Below are positions 2,061-50,500 of a stretch of DNA of 64,000 nucleotides, in pieces. Source of the DNA: Sipunculus nudus. Taxonomy: Eukaryota; Annelida; Sipuncula; Golfingiida; Sipunculidae. The position numbers were made by a program, and so were the translations under genes. Below the pieces are notes generated by a model. That model did no database searches. It saw nothing but the letters and a program-made list of their open reading frames with translations, and was not told where the DNA came from. Position 1 is the first letter of the stretch, and every line of letters starts with the position of its first letter. The stretch spans positions 63,916,870 through 63,980,869 of the forward strand of contig CM049307.1 of NCBI GenBank assembly GCA_026874595.1. The letters run 5' to 3'.

Positions 2061-3045
2061 GGTTACAGTTTTTGTTATATTGTTGCACTTGAAAATGTAA
2101 AGTTGCTACAACTACTTGGCAAAGGTCACTCTCGTAGTAAAGGACTTCAGTCATGACACAACTTTATATAGCCTTTGTCCTCTCACCCATAACTATGCCC
2201 ATATCAAGTTTGATATGGTTTTGAGAAATATTTTGTGAGTATCTTGTTCCCAAAACAAAATTCTGTGGTGGCAGTGGAGGGACCATGCTGAAACCATAAC
2301 TATCCCCTGACTTTCTCTGGGGATACAACTTTTATGTATCAACAACAACTGCACCAATTCTTACCATCTCAATGAAGTCATGACATGAACTGCCATAAAT
2401 GTTTGCAAGTGTACTTTCTAACAACACCTACCATCTGCAAATAGATTCTGTTATAACTCAGTATAAGTAGGTGAACCTCACTATATCATTTTATAGCATA
2501 TTGTTGCTAAATTTCTGACTCATGCAAACATGTCTCCTATGGGTTATATGATTGACAGCTAGGTAGTGGCAGGCTCAGGTAATGACATTGGCAACTAAAC
2601 ACCGATATTATGGGATTTGCATTTTAGTTCATCCAATAACATGTAAACTTTTTTGTGTTAATTCCTCGCTCATAGTCTACTGTGATCAGCTGTGGACAAT
2701 GATACATGATGGATGGATGGCCATTGCAGTGCAGTTTACCAAATGACAGGCATCACAACTCTAAGCAGGCCCTATTAATCCACATAAAATACCTAATAAA
2801 TTATGTATTAATTGGCTAAATCTCCTCGATACTTAGTAAATCCATCCTTAATTATATTCTAGACAGCCCAACAATCACATGATTTTCAAGACACATTTCA
2901 GGGCTAATGATATGCCTGTTGAGTCTAGCCATGATGATATGAACATTTATAGCCACTTAAACTTAGCATGATAAAGCAAAGCAAATCATTATAAGCTGAG
3001 TGGTTTAACTACAGCATCTCTGGAGTTGTGAGATGAGATTCTGGT
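2061..3045. other. Intergenic sequence with a short dispersed repeat
   Basis: No coding feature. A stretch at about 2418-2535 (CTAACAACACCTACCAT, then AAATTTCTGACT about 90 bases on) recurs at about 61338-61440 in the last P450 intron, and part of it near 53306 in intron 5, so it is a dispersed repeat. The rest shows nothing recognisable. Confidence 0.4.
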
Positions 3046-3068
3046 TATATATATATATATATATATAT

Positions 3069-3370
3069 AGAAAGATGTTGAATGGCCATGCTGGTCCATC
3101 TCATGGAGATAAAGAACAAGAATACACAGAAAAAGTCGGATCACCCCGTATGGGAATCGAACCCATGACCCTCCGATTGCCGGTTGTCTGCTCTACCACT
3201 GAGCTAACAGGGATCCCCAACTTCCTCTGTGTATCAGCACACTTTCATTGGAACCAGCGAAGTGACGTCACTACTGTGACTGGTATTATACATACTATGT
3301 GTCGACACGGCGACTTTGCATGTTGCAGTGATAAACTGATGGCCTTTTATGGTGTGCATCAAATATTATA
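3069..3370 (-). repeat. tRNA-derived SINE, tandem copy 1
   Basis: The complement of 3138-3216 is a tRNA-like head: GGATCCCTGTTAGCTCAGTG opens it with an A box (TAGCTCAGTGG), and a B box (GGTTCGATTCC) lies about 35 bases on. It is followed in the same sense by TTTTTCTGTGTATTC and a SINE body. The acceptor stem is imperfect and no terminator is placed as in a working tRNA gene. It is the first of three head-to-tail copies with a period of about 302-306 bp; a TA microsatellite (about 3045-3068) precedes it. Confidence 0.75.
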
Positions 3371-3676
3371 TAGAAAGATGTTGAAAGGCCATGCTGGTCC
3401 ATCTCATGGAGATATAGAACAAGAATACACAGAAAAAGTTGGATCACCCCATATGGGAATCGAACCCATGACCCTCTGATTGCCGGTCGTCTGCTCTACC
3501 ACTAGGCTCACAGGGATCCCCAACTTCCTCTGTGTATCAGCACACTTTCATTGGAACCAGCGAAGTGACGTCACTACTGTGACTGGTATTATACATACTA
3601 CATGTGTCGACACGGCGACTTTGCATGTTGCAGTGATAAACTGATGGCCTTTTATGGTGTGCATCAAATATTATAT
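3371..3676 (-). repeat. tRNA-derived SINE, tandem copy 2
   Basis: Same unit as the first copy, with the tRNA-like head at 3441-3519 (complement). The A-box region is altered (TGAGCCTAGTGG), which would weaken pol III initiation. Flanks match copy 1, so the whole 305-bp unit, not just the SINE head, was duplicated. Confidence 0.75.
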
Positions 3677-3935
3677 AGAAAGATGTTGAAAGGCCATGCT
3701 GGTCCATCTCATGGAGATATAGAACAAGAATACACAGAAAAAGTTGGATCACCCCATATGGGAATCGAACCCATGACCCTCTGATTGCCGGTCGTCTGCT
3801 CTAACACTAGGCTAACAGGGATCCCCAACTTCCTCTGTGTATCAGCACACTTTCATTGGAACCAGCGAAGTGACGTCACTACTGTGACTGGTATTATACA
3901 TACTACATGTGTCGACACGGCGACTTTGCATGTAA
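3677..3935 (-). repeat. tRNA-derived SINE, tandem copy 3
   Basis: Third head-to-tail copy; tRNA-like head at 3746-3824 on the complement, with the altered A box (TTAGCCTAGTG) and intact B box. The unit is cut short where the sequence switches to a different repeat near 3936. Confidence 0.75.
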
Positions 3936-4066
3936 ATGGTTAAGTGCATGTAAATTGGACAGAATTAAGACGACTGCTTAAGCAGACGGCCGGCAATCGT
4001 AGGGTCATGGGTTCGATTTCCATACGGGGTGATCCGACTTTTTCTGTGTATTCTTGTTCTATATCT

Positions 4067-4108
<42 letters not shown>

Positions 4109-4408
4109 GGAGTGATTCATGTGATTGGGGCCTGACTTCCGCATTAGTGTATTTAATCTGCTTGGTGCAATGGGGATCTGATCTCCAGGGTTGTGTTCTC
4201 AATCTATATGTCAGAACACTAACACAAACTTTGAGGTGGACATAATGGCCAAGGTTTAGGCCCCTGCTGGTGGATACCATGTGAGAATATGGAAGATAAC
4301 CAAAACAATAGTTGCAATTGATCTTCTGAATGACTGGGAATGCCTATTTGTACATGGTAAATGGTTAAGTGCATGTAAATTGGACAGAATTAAGACGACT
4401 GCTTATCA
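3936..4408 (+). repeat. Opposite-strand SINE fragment between 45-bp direct repeats
   Basis: A + strand SINE piece (about 3979-4062) keeps the B box GGTTCGATTTCC and the TTTTTCTGTGTATTC tail but has lost the A-box half. A TA microsatellite (4068-4107) follows. The segment is bracketed by a direct repeat of about 45 bp (GGTTAAGTGCATGTAAATTG and following) at 3936-3980 and 4361-4405, indicating an insertion-associated or segmental duplication. Confidence 0.6.
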
Positions 4409-4720
4409 ACAATATTGGCTATCTTACATTACGTTTGCTTAACATTCCGTACAAGAATTATAGTGTTACACAAATAATCACTCTGTCTTCCCTATGTTCA
4501 ATGTGTAGTGGTAAGTATTAATTAATTAAGATGCAAAATCCTGTCACACAAAGTGGGCCCCTTATTGTGACCAAGTACAGGCTTACTGGTTGCTCTAGTG
4601 TGCTGAAGTGTGTCTGGTCATATGGGAGGTTGCAGGAAGAGGCCTCCTTCCTGTGACCCCCCCCCCACCCCCAACGCATTGAAGGAAAGACAGCCATATA
4701 TATATATAACATATATATAC
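4409..4720. repeat. Poly-C dispersed repeat, copy 1
   Basis: This stretch matches, in inverted orientation, about 59940-60250 in intron 9 of the P450 gene. Shared landmarks in order are an ACAAGAATTATA phrase, a CACTCTG/TGTAGTG block, a lone TGTGCTGAAG block, GGCCTCCTTCCTG and a C homopolymer (4656-4673 here). No coding potential. Class unknown. Confidence 0.5.
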
Positions 4721-5200
4721 CCAACATTTTTATTTGGTTACTTATACAACTGTTCAGAGAATGTATCATCTAGGGTGAAACAAGTAAAACATTTGGCCTC
4801 AAGTACTCGACAGACATTACCCTACTCACACTCGAGTACTCATTATATGTAATTGCATGATTTCTATGCTGGATATTAAGTACTTCGTCACTATTACCCA
4901 GACTAAAGTACATGCATCTTTCAGCCACAATATTATAAGATCTTATTTCGAATCAGATGTTTATGAATTTGTAATTATATGTTTCACAAATAAATGTAAC
5001 ATGTTAATTGTGGATACCAGTCGATTCGTATGATAAAATGTCTATCTATTACAATTAAAATTCAAATGCACAATGATACCTATACTAAAAAGTTTGTTTG
5101 GTTGTTGATTTTTTTAATTAACGGCTCAGGATACACCATGCAAGGAGTGGATTACATGTAAATACAAACATTGCGCAGCATGGACAACTGGCCACCATGG
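4721..5200. other. Intergenic AT-rich sequence
   Basis: A short TA-type microsatellite occurs at 4696-4720. Beyond that no gene, RNA or repeat boundary is recognised. Confidence 0.35.
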
Positions 5201-7803: not shown

Positions 7804-7812
7804 GATGATTGC
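7804..7812 (+). repeat. Target site duplication, left (GATGATTGC)
   Basis: GATGATTGC directly abuts the left tip of the foldback element (ACGTCAAGG). The same nine bases abut the right tip at 21138-21146, with no mismatch. Confidence 0.85.
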
Positions 7813-10800
7813 ACGTCAAGGAAATTCATAGCGTATTCGATATTCGAGGTTCGAGATTCAGATCCATAATACTCCCCCATTGCTCCAAAAGCCTCTATCT
7901 TTCCGTGCCCTCCAAACGGGGATTCCCAGCCTCATCAAGGGTTATCGTGAAACGGAGCAAGGCATCCTTCTTCAGAATAATACAGAGCAGTTATCAGAGC
8001 AGCACAAACGGCCGTTTTAGAGCAGCAGCCAACCATATCTTGGTCCAAATCGCATATATCTATCGATATTTACGGCCTCCTTTCTGTGACGAATGCCATG
8101 TACCGGCAGACTATATATCGTTTTTTTTTTGTTTTTTTTTTTATCTCCGTATGTTTGGTATCAACTTTCACCACATGTGCACGCCCTTCGTTTTCCAACC
8201 CGATAATAATTAGAGCGGCACAAACGACCGTTTCAGAGCAGACCTCCAATTTGATATTCGCCGAAAATAGGGCACAAATCGCTGCTTTAACGGCCCACAG
8301 AGCCAAACTATCGTTTTTTTAAGGTCACCTTGCATACCATTCGATACCTCGCCCCCCCCCGCCTTTACATCCAATAAGATCCAATATAACGCCAATCTTC
8401 CCATAGAAGCCAGAATAACACACACCTCGCTATTCTGACCGCCGCAGGCCCGCAAACTATCGTTTTCCAACGCCATGTTGGGTATCAAGTCAAAGCCCAC
8501 ACCCCTGGCTGTCCGGCCCAATAATTATTCGAGCGGCACAAAAAGCCGTTTTAGAGCAGAGTCCCGCCATTATATCGAAAAGGCCATAAACATTGGGAAC
8601 ATCGCTTATACGGCTCCCACGGGTCACAACCATCGTTTTTTCAAGGTCGTCTTTCCCACCGGTCGACAGCCTGACCACTCCGCCCTCACGCCCCATGATA
8701 ATTAGAGCGGCACAAACGGCCGTTTCAGAGCAGGCCTCCATTTTGATATTCGCCGATAATAGGGCACAAATCGCTGCTTTGACGGCCCCCAGAGCCAAAC
8801 TATCATTTTTTCAAGGTCACCTGGCATACCATTCGATACCTCGCCCATCCCGCCTTCACATCCAATAATATCTAGAGCGGCACAAAGAGCCGTTTTCAGA
8901 GCAGTGCGCCATTTGGATATTCGCCAATATTCCCATAGATGCAAGAATGACACACACCTTGCTATTCTGACCGCCGCAGGCCCGCAAACTATCGTTTTTC
9001 CGGCGCCATGCTGGGTATCAAGTCAAAGCTAACATGCCTGGCTATCCGGCCCAATAATTATTAGAGCGGCACAAAAAGCCGTTTTAGAGCAGCGGCCCGC
9101 CATTATCTCAAAAAGGCCAAAAACATTGGGAACATCGCTTACACGGCCCCCCACCGATCACAACCATCGTTTTTTCAAGGTCGTCTTTCCCACCGATCGA
9201 CAGCCCGTCCACTCCGCCCTCACGACCCATGATAATCTGAGCGGCACAAACGGCCGTTTCAGAGCAGGCCTCCATTTTGATATTCGCCGAAAATAGGGCA
9301 CAAATCGCTGCTTTGACGGCCCCCAGAGCCAAACTATCGTTTTTTCAAGGTCACCTTGCATACCATTCGATACCTCGCCTATCCCGCCTTCACATCCAAT
9401 AATAACTAGAGCGGCACAAAGAGCCGTTTCAGAGCAGTGCGCCATTTGGATATTCGCCAATATTCCCATAGAAGCCAGAATAACACACACCTCGCTATTC
9501 TGACCGCCGCAGGCCCGCAAACTATCGTTTTTCCGACGCCATGTTGGGAATCAAGTCAAAGCCCACACCCCTGGCTGTCCGGCCCAATAATTATTAGAAC
9601 GGCACAAAAAGCTGTTTTAGAGCAGCGGCCCGCCATTATCTCGAAAAGGCCATAAACATTGGGAACATCGCTTACACGGCCCCCCACCGATCACAACCAT
9701 CGTTTTTTCGAGGTCGTCTTTCCCACCGATCGACAGCCCGTCCACTCCGCCCTCACGACCCATGATAATCTGAGCGGCACAAACGGCCGTTTCAGAGCAG
9801 GCCTCCCTTTTGATATTCGCCAAAAATAGGGCACAAATCGCTGCTTTGACGGCCCCCAGAGCCAAACTATCGTTTTTTCAAGGCCACCTTGCATACCATT
9901 CGATACCTCGCCCATCCCGCCTTCACATCAAATAATAACTAGAGCGGCACAAAGAGCCGTTTCAGAGCAGTGCGCCATTTGGATATTCGCCAATCTTCCC
10001 ATAGAAGCCAGAATAACACACACCTCGCTATTCTGACCGCCGCAGGCCCGCAAACTATCGTTTTTCCGACGCCATGTTGGGAATCAAGTCAAAGCCCACA
10101 CCCCTGGCTGTCCGGCCCAATAATTATTAGAGCGGCACAAAAAGCCGTTTTAGAGCAGCGGCCCGCCATTATCTCAAAAAGGCCAAAAACATTGGGAACA
10201 TCGCTTACACGGCCCCCCACCGATCACAACCATCGTTTTTTCAAGGTCGTCTTTCCCACCGATCGACAGCCCGTCCACTCCGCCCTCACGACCCATGATA
10301 ATCTGAGCGGCACAAACGGCCGTTTCAGAGCAGGCCTCCATTTTGATATTCGCCGAAAATAGGGCACAAATCGCTGCTTTGACGGCCCCCAGAGCCAAAC
10401 TATCGTTTTTTCAAGGTCACCTTGCATACCATTCGATACCTCGCCTATCCCGCCTTCACATCCAATAATAACTAGAGCGGCACAAAGAGCCGTTTCAGAG
10501 CAGTGCGCCATTTGGATATTCGCCAATATTCCCATAGAAGCCAGAATAACACACACCTCGCTATTCTGACCGCCGCAGGCCCGCAAACTATAGTTTTTTC
10601 GACGCCATGTTGGCTATCAAGTCAAAGCCCACATCTCTGGCTGTCCAGCCCAATAATTATTAGAGCGGCACAAAAACCCGTTTTCGAGCAGCTTCCCGCA
10701 ATTATCTAGAAAAGGCCAAAAATATTGGGAACATCGCTTATACGGCCCCCCACGGGTCACCATCATCGTTTTTTCAAGATCGTCTTTCCCAACGATCGAC

Positions 10801-13225
10801 AGCCCGTCCACTCCGCCCTCACATCCCATTATAATTAGAGCGGCACAAACGGCCGTTTCAAAGCAGGAATCCATTTTGATATTCGCCGAAAATAGAGCAA
10901 AAATCGATGCTTTAACGGCCCCTAGAGCCAAACTATCGTTTTTTTCAAGGTCACCTTGCATACCATTTGATACCTCGCCCATACCGCCTTCCCATCCAAT
11001 AATAACTAGAGCGGCACAAAGAGCCATTTCAGAGCAGTGCGCCATTTTGATATTCGCCAATCTTCCTAGAGAAGCCAGAAAAACACAGACCTCGCTATTC
11101 TGACCGCCGCAGGCCCGCAAACTATCGATTTTTCGACGCCATGTTGGCTATCAAGTCAAAGCCCACACGTCTTCGTGTTCAGCCCAATAATTATTAGAGC
11201 GGCACAAAAAGCCGTTTTAGAGCAAAGGCCTGCAATTATCTAGAAAAGGCCAAAAATATTGGGAACATCGCTTTTACGGCCCCCCACGGGTCACAATCAT
11301 CGTTTTTTCAAGGTCGTCTTTCCCACCGATCGACAGCACGTCCACTCCTTCCTCACAACCCATGAAAATTAGAGCGGCACAAACGGCCGTTTCAGAGCAG
11401 GCCTCCATTTTGATATTCGCCGAAAATAGGGCAAAATTCGCTGCTTTAACGGCCCCCAGAGCTAAACTATCTTTTTTCAAGGTCACCTTGCATACCATTT
11501 GATACCTCGCCCATCCTGCCTTCACATCCAATAATAACTAGAGCGGCACAACGAGCCATTTCAGAGCAGTGCGCCATTTTGATATTCGCAAATATTCAAA
11601 TAGAAGCCAAAAAAACACAACTCAATATTCTGACCGCCGCAGGCCCGCAAACTATCGTTTTTTCGACGCCATGTTGGCTATCAAGTCAAAGCCCACACGT
11701 CTTGCTGTCCAGCCCAGTAATTATTAGAGCGGCACAAAAAGCCGTTTTCGAGCAGCGGCCCGCAATTATCTAGAAAAGGCCAAAAATATTGGGAACATCG
11801 CTTATACGGCCCCCTTCGGGTCACAACAATCATTTTTTCAAGGTCGTCTTTCCCACCGATCGACAGCACGTCCACTCCACCCTCACATCCCATGATAATT
11901 AGAGCGGCACAAAGAGCCGTTTCAGAGCAGTGCGCCATTTTGATATTCGCCAATCTTCCCATAGAAGCCAGAAAAACACATTCCTCGCTATTCTGACCGC
12001 CGCAGGCCCGCAAACTATCGTTTTTTCGACGCCATGTTGGCTATCAAGTCAAAGCTCACACATCTGGCTATCCAGCCCAATAATTATTAGAGCGGCACTA
12101 AAAGCCGTTTTAGAGCATCGGCCCGCAATTATCTAGAAAAGGCCAAAAATATTGGGAACATCGCTTATACGCCCCCCCCCCCCCCCCCCCACGGGTCACC
12201 ATCATCGTTTTTTCAAGGTCGTCTTTCCCAACGATCGACAGCCCGTCCACTCCGCCCTCACATCCTATTATAATAAGAGCGGCACAAACGGCCGTTTCAA
12301 AGCAGGAATCCATTTTGATATTCGTCGAAAATAGGGCACAAATCGATGCTTTAACGGCCCCCAGAGCCAAACTATCGTTTCTTCAAGGTCACCTTGTATT
12401 CCAATTGATACCTCACCCACCCCGCCTTCACATCCAATAATAACTAGAGCGGCACAAAGAGCCGTTTCAGAGCAGTGCGCCATTTGAATATTCGTCAATC
12501 TTCCCATAGAAGCCAGAAAAACACACTCCTCGCTATTCTGACCGCCGCAGGCCCGCTAACTATCCTAACTATAGTTTTTTCGACCCCATGTTGGCTATCA
12601 AGTCAAAGCCCGCACCTCTGGATGTCTGGCCCAATCATAATTAGAGCGGCACAAAAAGCCGTTTTCGAGCAGCGGCCCGCCATTATCTAGACGAGGCAAA
12701 AAATATTGGGAACATCGCTTATACGGCCCCCACGGGTCAGAACCATCGTTTTTTCAAGGTCTTCTTTCCCACCGATCGACAGCCCGTCCACCCCGCCCTC
12801 ACATCCCATGATAATAAGAGCGGCACAAACGGCCGTTTCAGAGCAGGAATCCATTTTGATATTCGCCGAAAATAGGGCACAAATCACTGCTTTAACGGCC
12901 CCCAGAGCCAAACTATCGTTTTTTCAAGGTCACCTTGCATACCATTCGATACCTCGCCCATACCGCCTTCCCATCCAATAATAACTAGAGCGGCACAAAG
13001 AGTCGTTTCAGAGCAGTGTGCCATTTGGATATTCGCCTATCTTTCCATAGGAGCCAGAATAACACACACCTCGCTATTCACAGGCCCGCTAACTATCGTT
13101 TTTTCGACGCCATGTTGGGTATCAAGTCAAAGCCCACACGCCTGGCTGTCCGGCCCAATAATTATTTGAGCGGCACAAAAAGGCGGTTTAGAACAACGGC
13201 CCGCCATTATCTCGAAAAGGCCATT
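7813..13225 (+). repeat. Left foldback arm with higher-order satellite
   Basis: The outer 380 bp is single-copy within the arm. From about 8205 the arm is a tandem array. A conserved core (GAGCGGCACAAA, then GCCGTTTYAGAGCAG) recurs at about 8529, 8703, 8873, 9063, 9238, 9409, 9596, 9771, 9941, 10129, 10304 and 10475, giving a repeating spacing of about 175, 170 and 188 bp. Three diverged monomers therefore form a 533-bp unit, present about nine times. Units at 8.9-10.6 kb are nearly uniform; those at 10.6-13.2 kb are more diverged, with a shortened unit near 11.9 kb and a poly-C expansion at 12172-12190. The many open frames on both strands here are chance. Confidence 0.9.
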
Positions 13226-13745
13226 TTTCCATGTACGTCTATATTCATCAGCCTATACCAAAGAAGACTAAGCGATATTCGGTCGAACGCTTTGCTGAAG
13301 TCGACAAATAAACATTAGCACAGACCTTTTTGTCTTGTAAAATACTTATGCACAACACTGTATAATGAAAATATATTATCTATTTCACTTCGGTTTTGTC
13401 TGTATCCTGCTTGTTCTTCATAAAATCTGTGATTTTCTTCTGCCATTTTAACAAGGCGATTATTTAAAATTCCTGTTAATATTTTTGAAGTAACACCCAG
13501 TAAGGATATACCTCTAAACTTATTCACATCTGAATATGACCCTCCTTTATTCAATAGTACCAACACAGCATTTTAAAGGAAATGATCCTTTAGCCGTAAA
13601 ACAATTATACATTTTCTTCAATGCCCGAACTAATGAATTAGTGCCATTTTATACAGTTCAACGACCACACTATCAATGCCAGGTGCTATACCACTGTTTT
13701 ATGATTTTATACTGTTAACAATTTCTTCAGTTGTTAAAGGGATAA
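13226..13745 (-). pseudogene. Non-LTR retrotransposon (LINE) reverse transcriptase remnant
   Basis: On the minus strand the reading runs from an APGID motif (about 13666) through NKFRGISLLGV, ILNNRL, EEQAGYRQNRSEIDNIF and, after an in-frame TAA at 13315-13317, VDFSKAFDRISLSLLWYRL. These are the palm and finger motifs of LINE reverse transcriptases in the correct order (the VDFSKAFD motif corresponds to the first catalytic Asp region). Upstream the frame also has stops. The YADD box and endonuclease are missing: the fragment stops exactly at the boundary with the left satellite arm near 13225. It is a dead fragment; the clade is not determined. Confidence 0.85.
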
Positions 13746-14180
13746 GATAGTTATTCTGTTCATTTATTTAATATTATTCATAAGTTATTAATGCAAGTGT
13801 ATTCCTATAAGCTGTATTGATTTAAATTTGGAAAAAAAGTTGCAACTACTTGCTTGTTTTACATGGTTTTAATACTATTAAATTTACTCAACTGTATATT
13901 ATAATGATCACTTTATTTATAAAATTTAACGTTCTATTTTTCTGAACACATAACTTTTCGCGGTTACAAAGAGATTCAAAACATACACACGTTTCAGATT
14001 CTTATTTTTTCATACTTTAAATGTAGAGCCTATTCTCACATTTTTAACATTATTTATGCTTTAATATTCCACGTGCATTAGTTATGTTTTTCTCTTCTCA
14101 TCTGTACATATATCACGTTTGTTGTATTTGTATCAGTTATCACTAGTTCTACATTTATTCATTCCGTTGCTTGTATTGAT
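13746..14180. other. Foldback loop, AT-rich spacer
   Basis: AT-rich sequence between the LINE remnant and the NADAR remnant. The first NADAR exon, which should carry the N-terminal part of the domain, was looked for here and not found. Confidence 0.4.
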
Positions 14181-14192
14181 TTTTGGGCTATA

Positions 14193-15056
14193 AGAAAATG
14201 GCAAAACTCATTTTGACGACGGACAATCCAAACATTCAAATAGAACTTGGACGACGAGTGAGGAATTTTGACGAAGGAACATTGAATGTCCACCAGATCG
14301 AAGTTGTTGAAAAGGGCAACATGGCCAAGGTGAGAACTAGCTCAACTGCAGTCATGGAGTGCTACAGCGATAACAATAAGGACACATGGAAAATAACCTG
14401 TGCATATAACATACAAAGTTCTGACTGTTTTATTTTTTATTCTTTTGTTATGTGTATATGAACATCACGAGATCATAAATATAAATATAAATATATCTGG
14501 TTTATACAAATAAAGATTATACATAGGAGATGTCTATATTTTCTTAACTCACAACAATTAGAATGTAAGTCTATACAGATAAAGTGGGTCAATTAATCGT
14601 TATACATGTTTATTGATGATCAGTATATATATATTCTTTACCCAAACAACTCATAAAAAAGTAGCTATTCTACACTGACAAGACAAAAACGGATAAAGTG
14701 GGCCGGATATGTTTGTATGATGTTTCAAATTGCACCCGGTGAGTTAAAACTGGAAAACAATTTGACACCTGCAAAAACGAAAATCGATAGCTCTTCTTGT
14801 AATCATCTAGAGACACAGCACATTTTCACAATTGCTCAATACCTTTTCATGTGTCTTTTCCATTTATTTCAGTTTTCACAGAATCAAGACTTTGGGAGAT
14901 TTCCTCCTGTGGACAGGCAGAGCAAGACTAGTCCAGGCCTCTCCCTTCGATAGGAAATGGGGAGTTGTCCTCGACATGAGGGATGTGAGGGCTTTGTACC
15001 CACTGCAGTGGAAGGGGAAAAACATGTAAGGGAAGGTTTTGATTTATTTGTGAGAG
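14193..15056 (+). pseudogene. NADAR-domain (YbiA-like) gene remnant, two exons
   Basis: Exon A (about 14193-14329, after a possible acceptor) reads MAKLILTTDN, then ELGRRVRNFDEGTLN and EKGNMAK, and ends in AAG|GTGAGA, a good donor. Exon B follows the acceptor TTTATTTCAG (14863-14872) and reads FLLWTGRARLVQASPFDRKW, then PLQWKGKNM. This is the order of NADAR domains (LGR.V..FD, GN.AKF, FLL.TG, VEASP.DR.WG, W.G.NLLG), a family that acts on ADP-ribose or NAD-derived substrates, some members removing ADP-ribose from modified bases. Three defects are visible: no N-terminal exon, one extra T in the four-T run at 14873-14876 that breaks the frame at the junction, and a TAA at 15027-15029 where the family has Leu, followed in frame by GKVLIYL. 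It lies in the loop of the foldback element, so it was probably captured. The intron shows it came from a genomic, not a retrotransposed, copy. Confidence 0.7.
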
Positions 15057-16258
15057 GGTCAGTAGAAAAAAAGGCAGATAGCAAGAACGCATAAGAATTT
15101 CCACAGCGTTCCACATGGTTCAATATCGTAAATGGTGCCATGTCGTTTGGATGATATATGTAAACATGTATAGATTTCGTGTATATATCGTGACATCTCT
15201 TGTATATAATTATATATATTGTACATAATATGATCATGTATGTTTTTTTAAATAAATAATGTCCTCACTTTTTTTTGTTTCTTTCAAATTTTTGTGAATG
15301 TTATCATCAGTAATGATCTGATGAGACATTAGACAATTATCCTCATGTCGATCGTTCACCCATTGACTGACCTTAACCCGTTTTATTTATATTTATTAAT
15401 CTTCTCATCAAAATGTGTTAAGGACAAAATGTGACAAAATGTGTATTTATTAGAAACATGTTCCTAATGCCTTGAGGTTGAAAACATTCGAAAACGATGG
15501 GTCAGTGTAACCGACTGTATTCGAGCAGAGTACGTTGTAAAAAAATTACAACAAAATTCCTGAAAATCAAATTCAGTTGAAACAGTGTTGATCTGCCGTC
15601 CATGTACAGAATCACTGAACCGTGCCGCTACTCTTAAGCAAGATGTTCTGTTGTAAAAGTTATCACAAAAACAATAACCATGGCACTTTTTTTATACTGT
15701 AAGTACATTTGATCTAATTTTCACAGCATGTACACATACACATTTAATGTGTTAAATTCTTAAGTTTGAAAGCATGAGTATTGAAGTCCTCGGGTCGCCA
15801 AGGCCTTCCTGTCACAGGTGTACAGTCATTCTCATGTGCCACCCTCCCCCCTCCCCCATTAAGTCTTTGCAATACTTGTTATTGTTATCGTTAAATATAG
15901 TTCTTTATTAGTTAAGCTGTTTCAAATGCAATGTACACACCTTTTTAAAAAAAAATTATACAGGAGTAAACCAGAAGATGCCATGTTGTGCTTATATAGC
16001 AAATAGCAAAATAAATTAATTTTAAATTAATACTAAATAATTTATAAAAATATATTTAACCTATTAGTAAGCAAAATTTGATAATAAAAGACCGAATTCG
16101 TGGATAAATTAGAAATTTTAAATTCTGAACAATATGCTATTTTTAGACACATTGGTTTGCAAATTAGAAAATATATATCCTCGTTTCAGTCCAGCAATCA
16201 CGTTCGCTGATTTATTAATTGACCTGTTGATCACGCACTCGCCGTCAGGTCAATTATT
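15057..16258. other. Foldback loop, right part
   Basis: No gene. A fragment near 15690-15780 (TTTTCACAGCATGTACACAT and neighbours) resembles the body of family 2 (compare 43775-43815). The rest is AT-rich up to the start of the right satellite arm. Confidence 0.4.
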
Positions 16259-19200
16259 ATTGTATGTAAGGGCGGAGTGGACGGGCTGTCGATCGGTCGA
16301 TCGGCGGTATGGGCGAGGTATCAAAAGGTATGAAAGGTGAATTTGAAAAAACGATAGTTTGGCTCTGGGGGCCGTTAAAGCATCGATTTGTGCCTTATTT
16401 TCGGCGAATAGCAAGATGGAGGCCTGCTCTGAAACGGCCGTTTGTGCCGCTCGAATTATCATGGGGCGTGAGGGCGGAGTGGACAGGCTGTCGATCGGTG
16501 GGAAAGACGACCTTGAAAAAAAGATGGTTGTGACCCGTGGGGGGGCCGTATAAGCGATGTTCCCAATGTTTTTGGCCTTTTCGATATAATGGTGGGCCTC
16601 TGCTCTAAAACGGCTTTTTGTGCCGCTCGAATAATTATTGGGCCGGACAGCCAGGGGAGTGGGCTTTGACTTGATACCCAACATGGCGTCGGAAAAACGA
16701 TAGTTAGCGGGCCTGCGGCGGTCAGGATAACGAGGTGTGTGTTTTTCTTGCTTTTATAGGAAGATTGGCGAATATCAAAATGGCGCACTGCTCTGAAACG
16801 GCTCTTTGTGCCGCTCTAGTTCTTATTGGATGGTAAGGCGGTATGGGCGAGGTATCAAATAGTATGCAAGATGACCTTGAAAAAACTATAGTTTGGCTCT
16901 AGGGGCCGTTAAAGCAGCGATTTGTGCCCTATTTTCGACGAATATCAAAATGGAGGCCTGCTCTGAAACGGCCGTTTGTGCCGCTCTAATTATCATGGGA
17001 TGTGAGGGCGGAGTAGACGGGCTGTCAATCGGTGGGAAAGACGACCTTGAAAAAACGATGGTTGTGACATGTGGAAGCCGTATAAGCGATGTTCCCAATG
17101 TTTTTGGCCTTTTCGAGATAATGGCGGGCCGCTGCTCTAAAACAGCTTTTTGTGCCGTTCTAATAATTATTGGGCCGGACAGCCAGGGGTGTGGGCTTTG
17201 ACTTGATTCCCAACATGGCGTCGGAAAAACGATAGTTTGCGGGCCTGCGGCGGTCAGAATAGCGAGGTGTGTGTTATTCTGGCTTCTATGGGAAGATTGG
17301 CGAATATCCAAATGGCGCACTGCTCTGAAACGGCTCTTTGTGCCGCTCTAGTTATTATTTGATGTGAAGGCGGGATGGGCGAGGTATCGAATGGTATGCA
17401 AGGTGGCCTTGAAAAAACGATAGTTTGGCTCTGGGGGCCGTCAAAGCAGCGATTTGTGCCCTATTTTTGGCGAATATCAAAAGGGAGGCCTGCTCTGAAA
17501 CGGCCGTTTGTGCCGCTCAGATTATCATGGGTCGTGAGGGCGGAGTGGACGGGCTGTCGATCGGTGGGAAAGACGACCTCGAAAAAACGATGGTTGTGAT
17601 CGGTGGGGGGCCGTGTAAGCGATGTTCCCAATGTTTATGGCCTTTTCGAGATAATGGCGGGCCGCTGCTCTAAAACAGCTTTTTGTGCCGTTCTAATAAT
17701 TATTGGGCCGGACAGCCAGGGGTGTGGGCTTTGACTTGATTCCCAACATGGCGTCGGAAAAACGATAGTTTGCGGGCCTGCGGCGGTCAGAATAGCGAGG
17801 TGTGTGTTATTCTGGCTTCTATGGGAATATTGGCGAATATCCAAATGGCGCACTGCTCTGAAACGGCTCTTTGTGCCGCTCTAGTTATTATTGGATGTGA
17901 AGGCGGGATAGGCGAGGTATCGAATGGTATGCAAGGTGACCTTGAAAAAACGATAGTTTGGCTCTGGGGGCCGTCAAAGCAGCGATTTGTGCCCTATTTT
18001 CGGCGAATATCAAAATGGAGGCCTGCTCTGAAACGGCCGTTTGTGCCGCTCAGATTATCATGGGTCGTGAGGGCGGAGTGGACGGGCTGTCGATCGGTGG
18101 GAAAGACGACCTTGAAAAAACGATGGTTGTGATCGGTGGGGGGCCGTGTAAGCGATGTTCCCAATGTTTTTGGCCTTTTTGAGATAATGGCGGGCCGCTG
18201 CTCTAAAACGGCTTTTTGTGCCGCTCTAATAATTATTGGGCCGGACAGCCAGGGGTGTGGGCTTTGACTTGATTCCCAACATGGCGTCGGAAAAACGATA
18301 GTTTGCGGGCCTGCGGCGGTCAGAATAGCGAGGTGTGTGTTATTCTGGCTTCTATGGGAAGATTGGCGAATATCCAAATGGCGCACTGCTCTGAAACGGC
18401 TCTTTGTGCCGCTCTAGTTATTATTTGATGTGAAGGCGGGATGGGCGAGGTATCGAATGGTATGCAAGGTGGCCTTGAAAAAACGATAGTTTGGCTCTGG
18501 GGGCCGTCAAAGCAGCGATTTGTGCCCTATTTTTGGCGAATATCAAAAGGGAGGCCTGCTCTGAAACGGCCGTTTGTGCCGCTCAGATTATCATGGGTCG
18601 TGAGGGCGGAGTGGACGGGCTGTCGATCGGTGGGAAAGACGACCTCGAAAAAACGATGGTTGTGATCGGTGGGGGGCCGTGTAAGCGATGTTCCCAATGT
18701 TTATGGCCTTTTCGAGATAATGGCGGGCCGCTGCTCTAAAACAGCTTTTTGTGCCGTTCTAATAATTATTGGGCCGGACAGCCAGGGGTGTGGGCTTTGA
18801 CTTGATTCCCAACATGGCGTCGGAAAAACGATAGTTTGCGGGCCTGCGGCGGTCAGAATAGCGAGGTGTGTGTTATTCTGGCTTCTATGGGAATATTGGC
18901 GAATATCCAAATGGCGCACTGCTCTGAAACGGCTCTTTGTGCCGCTCTAGTTATTATTGGATGTGAAGGCGGGATAGGCGAGGTATCGAATGGTATGCAA
19001 GGTGACCTTGAAAAAACGATAGTTTGGCTCTGGGGGCCGTCAAAGCAGCGATTTGTGCCCTATTTTCGGCGAATATCAAAATGGAGGCCTGCTCTGAAAC
19101 GGCCGTTTGTGCCGCTCAGATTATCATGGGTCGTGAGGGCGGAGTGGACGGGCTGTCGATCGGTGGGAAAGACGACCTTGAAAAAACGATGGTTGTGATC

Positions 19201-21137
19201 GGTGGGGGGCCGTGTAAGCGATGTTCCCAATGTTTTTGGCCTTTTTGAGATAATGGCGGGCTGCTGCTCTAAAACGGCTTTTTGTGCCGCTCTAATAATT
19301 ATTGGGCCGGATAGCCAGGCATGTTAGCTTTGACTTGATACCCAGCATGGCGCCGGAAAAACGATAGTTTGCGGGCCTGCGGCGGTCAGAATAGCAAGGT
19401 GTGTGTCATTCTGGCATCTATGGGAATATTGGCGAATATCCAAATGGCGCACTGCTCTGAAAACGGCTCTTTGTGCCGCTCTAGATATTATTGGATGTGA
19501 AGGCGGGATGGGCGAGGTATCGAATGGTATGCCAGGTGACCTTGAAAAAATGATAGTTTGGCTCTGGGGGCCGTCAAAGCAGCGATTTGTGCCCTATTAT
19601 CGGCGAATATCAAAATGGAGGCCTGCTCTGAAACGGCCGTTTGTGCCGCTCTAATTATCATGGGGCGTGAGGGCGGAGTGGTCAGGCTGTCGACCGGTGG
19701 GAAAGACGACCTTGAAAAAACGATGGTTGTGACCCGTGGGAGCCGTATAAGCGATGTTCCCAATGTTTATGGCCTTTTCGATATAATGGCGGGACTCTGC
19801 TCTAAAACGGCTTTTTGTGCCGCTCGAATAATTATTGGGCCGGACAGCCAGGGGTGTGGGCTTTGACTTGATACCCAACATGGCGTCGGAAAACGATAGT
19901 TTGCGGGCCTGCGGCGGTCAGAATAGCGAGGTGTGTGTTATTCTGGCTTCTATGGGAAGATTGGCGAATATCCAAATGGCGCACTGCTCTGAAACGGCTC
20001 TTTGTGCCGCTCTAGTTATTATTGGATGTGAAGGCGGGATGGGCGAGGTATCGAATGGTATGCAAGGTGACCTTGAAAAAACGATAGTTTGGCTCTGGGG
20101 GCCGTCAAGGCAGCGATTTGTGCCCTATTTTCGGCGAATATAAAAAATGGAGGCCTGCTCTGAAACGGCCGTTTGGGCCGCTCTAATTATCATGGGACGT
20201 GAATGCGGAGTGGACGGGCTGTCGATCGGTGGGAAAGACGACCTTGAAAAAACGATGGTTGTGACCGGTGAGGGGCCGTATAAGCGATGTTCCCAATATT
20301 TTTGGCCTTTTTTTCGAGATAATGGCGGGCCGCTGCTCTAAAACGGCTTTTTGTGCCGCTCTAATAATTAATGGGCCGCACAGCCAGGGGTGTGGGCTTT
20401 GACTTGATACCCAACATGGCGTCGAAAAAACGATATTTTTCGGGCCTGCGGCGGTCAGAATAGGGAGGTGTGTGTTATTTTGGCTTCTATGGGCAGATTG
20501 GCGAATATCCAAATGGCACAATGCTCTGAAACGGCTCTTTGTGCCGCTTTTGTTATTATTGGATGTTAAGGCGGTATAGGCGAGGTATGGAATGGTATGC
20601 AAGGTGACCTTGAAAAAATGATAGTTTGGCTCTGTGGGCCGTCAAAGCAGCGATTTGTGCCCTACTTTCGGCGAATATCAAAATGGAGGCCTGTTCTTAA
20701 ATGGCCGTTTGTGCCACTCTAATCATTATCTGGAAAAACGAAGGGCGTGTGGTTAAAGTTGATACCCAACATGACGGTGAGAAAAAAAACGATATAGTCT
20801 GCCGGTACATGACGGTGAGAAAAAAAAAACGATATAGTCTGCCGGTACATGGCATTCGTCACAGAAAGGAGGCCGTAAATATCGATAGATATATGCGAAT
20901 TGGACCAAGATATGCTTGGCTGCTGCTCTAAAACGGCCGTTTGTGCTGCTCTGATAACTGCTCTGTAAAATTCTGAAGAAGGATGTGGCTTGCTCCGTTT
21001 AACGGTAACCCTTGATGAGGCTGGGAATCCCCGTTTAGAGGGCATGGAAAGATAGAGGCTTTTGGAGCAATAGGGGAGTATTCTGAATCTGAATCTCGAA
21101 CCTCGAATGTCGAATACGCTATGAATTTCCTTGACGT
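16259..21137 (-). repeat. Right foldback arm with higher-order satellite
   Basis: This arm is the inverted counterpart of 7813-13225. Translations of matching frames are identical over 120 codons at 9158-9520, 10224-10586, 17770-18132 and 18836-19198, showing that both arms share the same units. Two 533-bp units are duplicated as a 1,066-bp dimer (frames at 17375-17853 recur unchanged at 18441-18919). Relative to its tip this arm carries about 594 bp more than the left arm before the matched units begin. A 42-bp tandem duplication lies in the outer part (about 20775-20850). Confidence 0.9.
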
Positions 21138-21146
21138 GATGATTGC
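21138..21146 (+). repeat. Target site duplication, right (GATGATTGC)
   Basis: Exact direct copy of 7804-7812, abutting the right tip of the foldback element. Confidence 0.85.
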
Positions 21147-28029: not shown

Positions 28030-30328
28030 CTAAAACGAAGTTTTGCGGATACTATGTTTTTGACCGGGTTCCGCCGCCGCCGCCGCGGCGTTTGTTTCCA
28101 GAAAACTCCTCTAAGACTACTGGACAGATTTTTCCGAAACTTACACAAATTATCGGGTCACATGTGAACTGGTGCCTAACCAAGTGACCTTGGCCTCTGA
28201 CTTTTCGTCTCTGCCCAGCGTCTGTTTGTCGTCTCTTTCCACACATAAACCCATAAATCTCGGGAACCGTTTGACCGATCCGGAAAAATTTTTTACACAA
28301 ATGTAGCCCTGGGATAGCTTTATAACATACACAACAAAAGGTGGCACCACCTGCAACCATGTTTGCACAGTGTCCATCTGTTCATCTGCCTGGGGTTAAA
28401 ATCACTCATATCTCTGCAGTGGTTTGACTAATTCACCTAAAATTCGGCATGCTTATACATCCTAGATAGCTTTCTTGATTTTATGACAGGTGGCGCCACC
28501 TACATTCACGTTAACACACTACACATAAACCCATATATCTCGGGAACCGTTTGACCGATCCGGAAAAAAAATTTTACACAAATGTAGCCCTGGGATAGCT
28601 TTATAACATACACCACAAAAGGTGGCGCCACTTGCAACCATGTTTGCACAGTGTCCATTTGTTCATCTGCCTGGGGTTAAAATCACTCATATCTCTGCAG
28701 TGGTTTGACTAATTCACCTAAAAATCGGCATGCATATACATCCTAGATAGCTTTCTTGATTTTATGACAGGTGGCACCGCCTACATTCACGTTAACGCTC
28801 CACATATAAACCCACATATCTTGGGAACCGTTTCACCAATCCGGAAAAAAATTTTACACAAATGTAGCCCTGGGATAGCTTTATAACATACACAACAAAA
28901 GGTGGCACTACATGCAACCATGTTTGCACAGTGTCCATCTGTTCATCTGCCTGGGGGTAAAATCACTCATATCTCTGCAGTGGTTTGAATAATTCACCTA
29001 AAATTCGGCATGTGTAAACATCCTAGATAGCTTTCTCGATTTTATGACAGGTGGCGCCACCTACATTCACATTAACGCTCCACACATAAACCCATATATC
29101 TCGGGAACCGTTTGACCGATCCGGAAAAAAAATTTACACAAATGTAGCCCTGGGATAGCTTTATAACATACACAACAAAAGGTGGCGCCACCTGCAACCA
29201 TGTTTGCACAGTGTCCATTTGTTCATCTGCCTGGGGTTAAAATCACTCATATCTCTGCAGTGGTTTGACTAATTCACCTAAAAATCGGCATGCATATACA
29301 TCCTAGAGAGCTTTCTTGATGTTATGACAGGTGGTGCCACCTACATTCACGTTAACGCTCCGCATATAAACCCATATATCTTGGGAACCGTTTGACCAAT
29401 CCGGAAAAAATTTTTACACAAATGTAGCCCTGGGATAGCTTTATAACATACACAACAAAAGGTTGCGCCACCTGCAACCATGTTTGCACAGTGTCCATTT
29501 GTTCATCTGCCTGGGGTTAAAATCACTCATATCTCTGCAGTGGTTTGACTAATTCACCTAAAATTCGGCATGCGTGTACATCCTAGATAGCTTTCTTGAT
29601 TTTATGACAGGTGGCGCCACCTACGTTCACGTTAACGCTCCACACATAAACCCATATATCTCGGGTACTGTTAGACCGATCCGGAAAAATTTTTTACACA
29701 AATGTAGCCCTGGGATAGCTTTATAACATACACAAAAATGGTGGCGCCATCTGCAGCCATTTTTGCACAGCGTCCATCTGTTTGTCTGCCTGTGGTTAAA
29801 ATCACTCATATCTCTGCAGTGGTTTGACCAAATTACCTGAAATTCAGCATGCTTATACATCCCGCATAGGTTTCTTGATTTTATGACAGGTGGCGCCACC
29901 TACATTCACGTTCACGCTGTAGACATCCATGCTTATATCTCCAGACTCATTCAACCAATCAGGAAAATTTTTTTACACAAATGTAGCCCTTGGATAGCTT
30001 TATAACATACACAAAAATGGTGGCGCCACCTGCAGCCATTTTTGCACAGCGTCCATCTGTTTGTCTGCTGTGGGATAAAATCACTCATATCTCTGCAGTG
30101 GTTTGACTTTTCCACATGAAATTTTGCTTGTGTATATATCTTGGATAGTTTCTCATTCAAATAACAGGTGGTGCCACCTACAATCATGTTTATGTGGCAG
30201 AGATCCATTCTAATATTTAACACATGTAACTCTATATCCCCTTGCCACTCAATCCATGCCTCACTTCACCCGTCCTTCTCTGATTTTGGCGGATACACGT
30301 AGTCGCTTGTCGACTACCCTTATTCTAG
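28030..30328 (+). mobile_element. Non-autonomous Helitron-like element with 283-bp array
   Basis: The 3' end is a textbook Helitron terminus: a 7-bp stem (GTAGTCG 30299-30305, CGACTAC 30311-30317) with a 5-base loop, then CTAG at 30325-30328 followed by T. The left end is less certain; it is placed near GTTTTGCGGATAC, because GGCGGATACAC recurs just before the hairpin, and a GCC-type run (CCGCCGCCGCCGCGG, 28072-28086) follows. No Rep/helicase coding. The element lies wholly inside the MULE. Confidence 0.65.
28230..30240 (+). repeat. 283-bp tandem array with two palindromes per unit
   Basis: About seven units, recognised by the recurring ACCCATATATCTCGGGAACC phrase near 28250, 28530, 28810, 29093, 29378, 29648 and, diverged, 29930. 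Each unit carries two copies of the palindrome GGTGGCGCCACC or one-base variants of it. Spacing is 265-285 bp. Confidence 0.9.
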
Positions 30329-47500: not shown

Positions 47501-50500
47501 AAAGTAATGGTCCAGCATTGAAGCATTATACCTGGTGTATTTCCCAGTGCACAGGTTCGCATTAGGCCTCTAGGCCTTGTTTCGATTTTTTACAATTTTT
47601 TTCTCTTTTTTTTTGAGACCTCAAAAGAGGCCGTCATCTGTTGACAGAGCAAAAATTGTAACCGCTGGACCTGGAATCTTCTCACCATACATCCAGGGAG
47701 GTCTAGGAAAAGTCTCCTTGGAAACCTGGAATTAGGTCTCTGTTACCCATATCCTTCAAGCTATGGGTCTCCGAAGTACCAAAAAGAATAACGAAAAATT
47801 TGATACAAAAGCTCAAATATCTGAACAACTAATGCATTGAACACCATGATTTTTTTGCATGGATATTGATCATTGGAATGTGTCATCAGATTCTGCAAAC
47901 TGGTGGAGCCACCTGTATTTTTATTGATTTTTTAATGATTTTTTTCCTGCATTTTGAGACCTTAAAAGATGCTGTCATCTGTCAACAGGGCACAAATCCT
48001 TACACCTGGACCTGGAATCTTCTCACTGTACATCCGGAGAGGTCCATGAAAAGTCTTCTTGGAAACCTGGAATGAGGTCTCTGTTACCCATATTGTTCAA
48101 GCTATATGGCTCTGAAGTACCCCCCAGAATAATCAAAAATTTTTATACACAAGCTCAAATATCTGAACAACTATTGATCACCATGATTTTTTGCATGGAT
48201 ATTGATCATGGAGTGTTTCATCACTTTCTGCAGACTAGTGGCACCACCTGAATTTTTTAATTTTTTTTATAATTTTTTTCTCTTTTTTTTGAGACCTCAA
48301 AAGATGCCGTCATCTGTTAACAGGGCACAAATTGTAACCGCTGGACCTGGAATCTTCTCACCATACATCCAGGGAGGTCCATGAAAAGTCTCCTTGGAAA
48401 CCTGGAATTAGGTCTCTGTTACCCATATTCTTCAAGCTATGGGTCTCCGAAGTACCCAAAAGAATAACGAAAAATTTGATTCAAAAGCTCAATTATCTGA
48501 ACAACTAATGCATTGATCACCATGATTTTTTTGCATGGATATTGATCATGGAATGTTTCATCAGATTCTGCAGACTGGTGGAGCCACCTGTATTTTTTTT
48601 ATTTTTTAATGATTTTTTTTCCTGTATTTTTGAGACCTTAAAAGATGCTGTCATCTGTCAACAGGGCACAAATCCTTACCACTGGACCTGGAATCTTCTC
48701 ACTCTACATCCAGAGTGGACCATGAAAAGTCTTCTTGGAAACCTGGAATGAGGTCTCTGTTACCCATATTGTTCAAGCTATGGGGCTCCGAAGTACCCCC
48801 CAGAATAATCAAAAATTTTTATACAAAAGCTCAAATATCTGAACAACTATTGATCACCATGATTTTTTGCATGGATATTGATCATGGAGTGTTTCTTCAC
48901 TTTCTGCAGACTAGTGGCACCACCTGAATTTTTTTTATTATTTTGCAATTTTTTTTTCTTTATTTTTGAGACCTCAAAAGATGCTGTCATCTGTTAACAG
49001 GGCACAAATCTTAACTGCTGGACCCGGAATCTATTCACTGTACATCTAGGGAGGTCCATGAAAAGTCTTCTTAGAAACCTGGAATTAAGTCTTTGTTACC
49101 CATATTCTTTTTTTCTCTATTTTGAGACCTTAAAAGATGTGGTCATCTATTAACAGGGCACAAACCGTAACACTAGACCTAGAATCTTCTTTCTTGACAT
49201 GCTGGGAGGCCCATGAAAAGTCTCCTTGGAAACAGATATTAGGTCTCTGTCATCCATATTGTCCGAGCTATGGGGCTCTTAAGTACCCCCCAGAATAATT
49301 GAAAATTTGATACCAAAGTAGGGCACAAATCGTAACCATGGGGCCCAGAATCTTCTAACTTGACATCCTGAGACTTCCTTAAAAGTTCTCCCCAGAAACC
49401 TCAAATTGGGTCACAGTGACCTATATTTTCAGTTTTGGGGTATGTTTGAGCACCCCAGAAATAATGCAAAATACACACAAATTGCCGGATTCCTTATGAA
49501 AGGCTGGTTTGATATTTATCAAATTTGTTGTGCTTATGGGTCTTGATGAACTTAAGCTAATATGCATGAACAATGATGCCACCCATCTTAATTAGTTGTC
49601 TGTGCAAGGACATATTATCAACATGTCAGTCGACTGAGCGTCATGACCCATGGGTAACTTGTTCATTTTAATGTGTTCACACTCTGTCCTTGCAAAATTG
49701 ATATTTTGTCAGTTAACTCCAGACTGAAATGTAGAATATATTTGGATATGCAAGAAAGCAAGGTCAACAGACAAGTTTAAATAAGAGTGTAATTTCTAGT
49801 CTAGTCACAAAATTAATATTAAATTATTTATTTGGATTTTCAGAACATTTCACAAAAATTGTTGAACATGCATACCAAACAAGGAAATTCAGTCAGAGAT
49901 TAATAATATATTATTATATATTATATTAATATATAGTAATATTTTTTTTTTCAGCTGCCAGGGCCACCATATAATCCATTCTTTGGCAATGTTCGTGAAG
50001 CAATGGTTGGTCAAGCCATGGAAAGCTCTGTGCGGTCAGTGTATTCTTTGTGGTCTGATTTCAGTTGTTTAATTTTTGTCAGACTATAGCAATAGTGTTG
50101 CCAGTGTTGTATCTATTCAGCTGGCTGGCTAAAACCAGAGTAAGCATTTATACACTTGGACAGGGTGCATTTTTAGTTCAGGTGTCACACAATACACCTC
50201 ACTGATTTTGCAAAATAGACATTAACACTTAACTCTGTTCACTTTCATCTTAGATAATTTTGCTATGGTAAAAAACAGATTTTTCCTCGACCATGGACAA
50301 CTATAGTAACTTAAAATTCTATGATATGCATAATTTTGTCATGTGGTCTATGTTTTGGAATGCTCCCAAAACTGTTTGCATTCACATACTTGGCCCATAA
50401 ATTCCTAATGCATGAAGCATAAGTGACTGTACATTTGTGAATATCTTCCTTGATGATGTTTCTGAATCCAGTTCATGTGTCTGATCCACACCAATATCTA

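Follow-up and report, generated by a model that had tools for sequence, protein, structure and literature searches.

A foldback element and its relatives in the genome

The window analysed here, a stretch of 64,000 nucleotides from Sipunculus nudus (C2:63916870-63980869 of a host genome searched over 1.43 Gb and 153 contigs), contains a 13,325-bp element with the layout of a foldback transposon. Direct reading places ACGTCAAGG at 7813 and the reverse complement of ACGTCAAGG ending at 21137, and directly outside both lies the target-site duplication GATGATTGC (7804..7812 and 21138..21146, unstranded; both also by duplication comparison), as an initial annotation made from the letters alone had reported. 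Inward from the left duplication, the element comprises a tip (A-type flanking domain, 7813..8211, plus strand) that starts with ACGTCAAGG and holds one diverged 30-bp box at about 7996; a left arm of 533-bp trimer satellite (188+175+170; 7996..13225, plus strand) that overlaps the inner part of this tip; an unstranded core of 3,026 bp (3.0 kb) and 33% GC (13226..16251), which includes an inner domain adjoining the right arm (16048..16251, unstranded) that is also present in copies C17 (93%) and C11 (95%) described below; a right arm of the same satellite (16252..20952, minus strand); and a right tip (B-type flanking domain, 20720..21137, minus strand).

Aligned to each other, the two tips are 95.2% identical over 373 gap-free columns, with 56 gap columns, of which 29 make up the largest gap, at a poly-T stretch, and 13 stem from where the two pieces were cut. 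The arms are tandem satellite, as had been described: their anchor motifs (29 and 27 per arm) recur mostly at spacings of 188, 175 and 170 bp to give the trimer, apart from a few irregular intervals close to the tips and within the inner part of the left arm. The left arm and the reverse-complemented right arm share 95.8% identity over 3,566 bp (98% over 2,555 bp ungapped), with the best pairing offset by 594 bp, approximately one trimer, and together form an imperfect palindrome. The initial annotation had proposed a hairpin with a stem of about 5 kb. The arms do pair, and a hairpin of the element would have a stem of about 4.9-5.4 kb, but with bulges, the 594-bp shift and, because the core separates the arms, a 3.0-kb loop. 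Such long terminal inverted repeats, mostly made of tandem repeats able to self-pair, are one feature of the foldback class.

The other feature, defined ends with a target duplication in several independent copies, is found across the host genome. The 24-bp terminus has 58 genome matches at 3 or fewer mismatches (control: 0 matches), and the 388-bp left tip has 55 (best 40 of 56 candidates scored). For comparison, seven more large tip pairs were fetched, together with eight smaller loci. The large copies, on C1, C3, C6 (two, C6a and C6b), C11, C14 and C17, measure 8.0-41.3 kb and lie at unrelated sites. Exact 9-bp duplications flank the window copy, C14 (22,108 bp, TGGTGTGAC), C3 (21,147 bp, TATATCTTA), C17 (8,018 bp, GCTGTCCTC), C1 (8,813 bp, CCTCAACTA) and C11 (31,402 bp, GTTGTTCAT), as well as the small copies L039 (3,100 bp), L040 (360 bp), L043 (146 bp) and L046 (159 bp). 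C6a (20,003 bp) has an exact 10-bp duplication, CTGCTCACAG, which scores 0/9 if forced to 9 bp; L042 (141 bp) and L044 (126 bp) match at 8/9, and L045 (185 bp) and C6b (41,333 bp, GGTACTTGT/TGTACGTGT) at 7/9. Among these 15 two-ended copies, the duplication is thus exact at 9 bp in ten, exact at 10 bp in one, 8/9 in two and 7/9 in two, while 210 mismatched left/right pairings used as a control agree at a mean of 2.47/9, with 7/9 in two pairings and 8/9 or 9/9 in none. L041 (C2:52445964), the ends of which did not resolve, was left out of this tabulation.

All 16 ends of the eight large copies fall at identical bases, ACGTCAAGG, while some ends of the small copies are off by a base or two (e.g. 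ATGTCAA, ACATCAAGG and GCGTCAAGG). Both the fixed ends and the 9-bp duplications that the initial annotation led one to expect elsewhere are therefore present in other copies, and these common termini, each pair with its own target duplication, support its reading of the element as a foldback transposon. The relatives of 126-185 bp have no arms and keep only about 39-105 bp of tip; L039 carries satellite in a single orientation, and its other tip is reduced to 82 bp. These data also bear on an origin without transposition, in which a local inverted duplication made the satellite array and segmental duplication spread it. That the element is mostly tandem satellite would suit such an origin, but the 500-bp flanks of the eight large copies, when compared, have no similarity among them, the duplication is exact and flush in 11 of the 15 copies, and the 126-185-bp derivatives have nearly the same ends; we consider it extremely improbable. 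A point that does not sit easily with transposition is that the genome searches turned up no partner for five tips with query matches of 316-352 bases (C1:21655430, C1:21732167, C9:42189830, C12:65895038 and C12:65943345); these one-tip copies and other short matches were also left out of the tabulation. Overall, tip-arm-core-tip units with the common termini ACGTCAAGG, 9-bp duplications and trimeric satellite arms of copy-dependent length occur at unrelated sites on several chromosome-size contigs, and they constitute a recently mobile foldback family, ordinary in kind and extreme in arm size and order.

Several side observations concern the tips. The five partnerless tips all lie on the minus strand, and the three that were fetched (C12:65895038, C1:21732167 and C9:42189830) carry satellite. 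In several tips, the terminal sequence recurs in tandem about 120-128 bp inward; such doubled tips are found in copies C17, C1 and C6b and at the C12, C9 and C1:21.7 Mb loci (L018, L019, L024, L055, L056, L057). At L058 (C1:88076600-88079800), which has no matches to the satellite, a 47-bp tip with an identical 20-bp flank occurs twice, 2,886 bp apart, in the manner of a tandem duplication.

Satellite arms and copying between them

Inverted satellite arms are present in all eight large copies, with lengths from about 0.65 and 2 kb (C6b) up to 13.2 kb (C6a left arm, 23.7 trimers by Tandem Repeats Finder, TRF). C1 is nearly a pure palindrome, in which plus-strand satellite ends at 4393 and minus-strand satellite starts at 4398 of 8,813 bp. 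The three monomer types of the trimer share just 61-69% identity with one another, and their order, abc, is repeated in the 14 arms of seven labelled copies, with some units dropped or unclassed, the latter mainly at the tips (456 of 476 monomers used, 20 dropped; C6b left out of the monomer comparison). A 30-bp box, AGAGCGGCACAAA..GCCGTTT.AGAGCAG, is nearly constant in all three monomer types and in one stretch of the tip, while the remainder of the monomer diverges; it is among the best conserved parts within types a and c and near the best in type b. By analogy with the extra repeats of Galileo, which have been argued, in the part of the paper available, to be secondary transposase binding sites (PMC3573991), this box may be a protein-binding site. 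If the 126-185-bp copies moved as such, the box is not essential for movement, because those copies lack arms, and the idea that satellite boxes are obligatory transposase sites is weakened accordingly.

In the window copy, a 2,202-bp block of one arm recurs with hardly a change in the other, and as a trace of copying between arms this is unusually clear. When scored against other copies, the monomers of A arms resemble those of other A arms and the monomers of B arms resemble those of other B arms. In the window, all 24 scored monomers of the right arm are B-type. In the left arm, monomers 02-13 score as B and monomers 14-26 as A, while monomer 27, the last and partial one, is B by mean and A by best match. 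The B-type tract within the A-type left arm (8390..10591, plus strand) has 3 mismatches over its 2,202 bp to right-arm positions 17765..19966 (minus strand) by register comparison: at the offset of 594, the 3 mismatches fall within element bases 578-2779, after which about 1 base in 8 differs, giving a sharp inner edge. Left-arm bases 578-2700 are 99.86% identical to the copy's own right arm, 95.8-97.1% to the B arms of C14, C3 and C6a, and 87-90% to the A arms of the same copies (two over part of the stretch). Bases 2850-5200, in contrast, match A arms at 93-97% (the C6a arm over 1.3 kb only) and B arms at about 90% over 1.3 kb; inward of the tract, the left arm is A-type and has retained its separate ancestry.

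From these sequence comparisons, the simplest reading is one recent conversion from the right arm to the left arm within the window copy. Transfer of the tract from another copy appears less likely, because the identities favour the copy's own right arm. Two points weigh against conversion. B-scoring monomers also occur in A arms elsewhere (4/38 in C14 and 1/32 in C3), which indicates that labels of single monomers are noisy; in the B arm of C14, 0/63 monomers score as A. In addition, an assembly error might in principle account for the tract. Assemblies are known to go wrong at large inverted repeats, and the wider form of this explanation is that the palindrome as a whole is false, produced by chimeric reads or by head-to-head joining of two haplotypes. 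A collapsed assembly graph could yield a 2.2-kb tract at 99.86% identity, but a false palindrome would be expected to have near-identical arms and mirrored flanks. In the window copy, each arm has its own number of units and, except in the one tract, the two diverge by about 10-12%, which argues against an artefact; they also stop at the 9-bp duplication and enclose a core. Seven other large copies (C1, C3, two on C6, C11, C14 and C17) have the same design with different flanks. A false palindrome is, in our judgement, very improbable. Read as conversion, the window copy records the direction in which one arm overwrote the other, sister copies show the earlier state, and both the upkeep of likeness between inverted arms and the rise of higher-order satellites in mobile elements become testable by comparing copies and individuals.

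Some other repeats in the window are separate from the element. Two further tandem arrays lie at 28238-30190 (280 bp x 7) and 47586-49109 (341 bp x 4.5), and the inverted matches around them are short (42 bases for the longest among the matches listed). At 3059-3933, a 305-bp unit is repeated 2.9 times with an inverted copy nearby, and this array has tRNA-like matches (RF00005, 41.9 and 31.1 bits), none of them called by ARAGORN.

The core and a candidate transposase

The 3.0-kb core is common to the window copy, C3, C14 and C6a, at 98-99.6% identity (Kimura two-parameter distance 0.003-0.012), with C3 and C6a the closest pair. Of the two tip types, A lies at the left in the window and C3 and at the right in C14 and C6a, and core orientation tracks the tips in all four copies, which indicates that tip A, core and tip B moved together. 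Because the C3 and C6 copies, with cores 99.6% identical, lie on different chromosome-size contigs, inverted repeats of very large size can apparently persist and move. C11 retains most of the core at 94-95%, rearranged and with an inverted partial duplicate. It also has an insertion with 235-bp direct repeats at 98.3% identity and gag- and pol-like open reading frames (ORFs); its long ORFs were considered as the family transposase and rejected, as they belong to a long terminal repeat (LTR)-type retrotransposon inserted at the core edge. Following the gag- and pol-like ORFs, this LTR-type insertion carries an ORF matching TatD_DNase (E 6e-40; L021:6873-7796).

The window core contains two kinds of recognisable fragment. 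A reverse-transcriptase fragment (13228..13572, minus strand) matches RVT_1 over 13318-13572 (E 3.3e-5, below cut-off) and continues over 13228-13314, as read by eye, to end at the left arm. Two NADAR (PF08719) fragments lie at 14198..14329 (plus strand; profile positions 58-100, E 1.3e-5) and 14880..15023 (plus strand; positions 106-149, E 4.6e-7), both below the curated cut-off, as is the match of the whole first NADAR ORF (E 1.5e-6). Between the pieces lie an intron-like gap and a change of frame, and both pieces are retained in the three sister cores (C3, C14 and C6a). A Pack-MULE-like capture would carry part of a host gene together with its intron, from a parent gene elsewhere in the genome; no separate donor or parent gene was found among the best 40 of 1,982 candidates in the genome. 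Core query bases 1-497 are 81-91% identical to dispersed repeats, in keeping with a retrotransposon, and bases 2430-2947 match other repeats at 68-85%. The NADAR and retrotransposon pieces would be passengers. The four core ORFs of at least 80 aa gave NADAR and RVT_1 only and no transposase domain, in agreement with the initial annotation, which had found no transposase in this copy. Elsewhere in the window, among ten ORFs scanned, 55681-55998 weakly matches cytochrome P450 (E 6.4e-5, just under cut-off) and may be a host-gene exon.

A copy that encodes a transposase had been proposed as the thing to look for, and the 41-kb copy C6b, which has no core in common with the window copy, contains a candidate gene, albeit a broken one without a Pfam transposase match. 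On its minus strand, an ORF that encodes a PHD finger (above cut-off, E 8.9e-8) is followed by a region with the motifs DATG, TDFSWAL, CxxH and AEVENW, which were read by eye and which we take to be a D-D-CxxH-E (DDE) pattern; the gene also weakly matches a ubiquitin-hydrolase cysteine box (E 0.021, below cut-off). Stops interrupt the gene, and a frame change breaks its sister at C12:65863751. Of 13 genome matches, only C6b and C12 are close (84-100%); the motifs are also kept by a relative on C3 at 36%. A family tip is found about 31 kb from the C12 gene copy, a nearness with a chance of about 0.2% by rough arithmetic that assumes uniform placement of about 40 tip loci. From these sequence features, the broken C6b gene is likely a remnant of the family transposase, in the manner of Rehavkus elements. 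Several results count against this assignment: C6b, which holds the gene, has just a 7/9 duplication; no left tip for the C12 gene copy was found among the genome tip matches; the gene matched no transposase family in Pfam; its 348-aa ORF had no homologue in a protein collection (1,400 candidates, none at E 0.001); a profile of six MULEs (Mutator-like elements) of the same genome gave no match (probability 0.6%); and structure prediction of the candidate catalytic region was uninformative, with a mean pLDDT (predicted local distance difference test) of 36. Against PDB, the 348-aa ORF gave nothing meaningful (best E 0.13).

The enzyme is also where an alternative enters, namely that the family is a canonical MULE moved by a PF10551 transposase of the genome, which differs from the explanation preferred below in the enzyme only. 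Duplications of 8-11 bp and long terminal inverted repeats (TIRs) are given as MULE features in the available text (PMC6446971), and the foldback elements Tm1 and, by inference, Tetris have been placed there (PMC3169594, PMC4079207, as available in part); the duplications here, 9 bp and in one case 10 bp, fall within that range, and the genome has at least 131 PF10551 matches (best 150 of 252 candidates scored). None of these 131 matches, however, lies inside the eight large copies, no MULE domain was found in any of the 58 core ORFs of at least 100 aa from C14, C6a, C3, C17, C11 and C6b, and the gene inside C6b is disfavoured as a canonical MULE by its lack of a profile match to the six local MULEs. 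Movement by a canonical MULE enzyme is on balance unlikely, though it deserves serious consideration. Many of the 131 matches have a 607-aa open frame and equal score, which suggests a recently active MULE family in this genome.

Mode of movement and known foldback systems

As a whole, the window element is very probably a non-autonomous cut-and-paste foldback-type DNA transposon. A DDE-type transposase acting in trans would recognise the outermost tens of bases of the tip, a limit suggested by the 126-185-bp relatives with their short remnants of tip, and would cut and join with a 9-bp stagger. The arms would lengthen and shorten through unequal exchange within the satellite, and by pairing as a hairpin, as a cruciform or through template switching they would homogenise each other by gene conversion. 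Foldback elements are suspected as seeds of satellite DNA. We tentatively propose, as one joint hypothesis that is less likely than not, that the arms trade satellite by self-pairing, so that a mobile element homogenises, enlarges and disperses a higher-order satellite, and that the family was mobilised by a transposase lineage not recognised as such by the libraries used here, with a PHD finger, a D-D-CxxH-E pattern and a ubiquitin-protease-like cysteine box.

The initial annotation had likened the element to Drosophila FB and Galileo. The kind is indeed known, and FB has foldback arms of tandem repeats as found here, a likeness in description; the layout is not confined to these elements, however, and the closest known systems, as far as the available portions of the literature extend, are Rehavkus-1_TC of Tribolium castaneum and Tetris. 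Helitrons and Helentrons, which are carriers of mollusc satellites, have neither target duplications nor inverted termini and are ruled out by the presence of both here. P elements make 8-bp target duplications. A P-superfamily foldback like Galileo would account for long TIRs that vary in length through the number of their internal tandem repeats, but Galileo has 7-bp duplications and TIRs of up to about 1.26 kb (PMC3573991, available in part), compared with 9-bp duplications here, outside the 7-8-bp range, and the ORFs scanned contained no P-type or THAP domain; we give this assignment very little credence. Tm1 of root-knot nematodes resembles the family in its foldback-like composite TIRs, 9-bp duplications and MITE-like (miniature inverted-repeat transposable element-like) relatives, and differs in an internal motif of about 14 bp and in a transposase of the Phantom-type MULE kind (PMC3169594, accessible portions).

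Rehavkus-1_TC and its group share with the family a 9-bp duplication (a property of the group) and inverted ends with tandem satellite, there a 164-bp unit mostly of five and eight monomers, and the group transposase has a PHD finger and a DDE domain, of which the broken C6b gene has the PHD finger and, as read by eye, a putative D-D-CxxH-E pattern (PMC10218199, PMC6446971, each available in part). Rehavkus-1_TC measures 9.5 kb in total with short arrays, whereas the copies here measure 8-41 kb with a three-part unit and up to about 24 trimers per arm (TRF). No transposase gene was found in seven of the eight large copies here. The TIRs of Rehavkus elements measure 26-400 bp, compared here with a non-satellite tip of about 400 bp and, with the satellite, an inverted repeat of several kb. 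Tetris of Drosophila virilis is likewise a non-autonomous foldback element, the TIR of which consists of a tip domain, a tandem array and an inner domain; its repeat of about 220 bp has a short stretch in common with the tip, as here, and its duplications of 8-10 bp are similar to those here, while its TIRs reach 1,735 bp, compared with arms of up to 13.2 kb, and the available portions of the paper mention no trimer higher-order unit like the one of 533 bp (PMC4079207). For complete arthropod MULEs, TIRs of 13-1193 bp are listed in the total row, with up to 1527 bp in one order (PMC13359780). No mollusc or gastropod foldback element was seen in the available portions of the open-access literature (including PMC5139131 and PMC4079207). 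We file the family as a foldback transposon that may work like Rehavkus-1_TC and Tetris, with its superfamily unassigned. In most of its large copies, the arms consist of a three-part higher-order satellite and extend over 4-13 kb, compared with about 1-2 kb in the published foldback elements considered here, as described in the text available.

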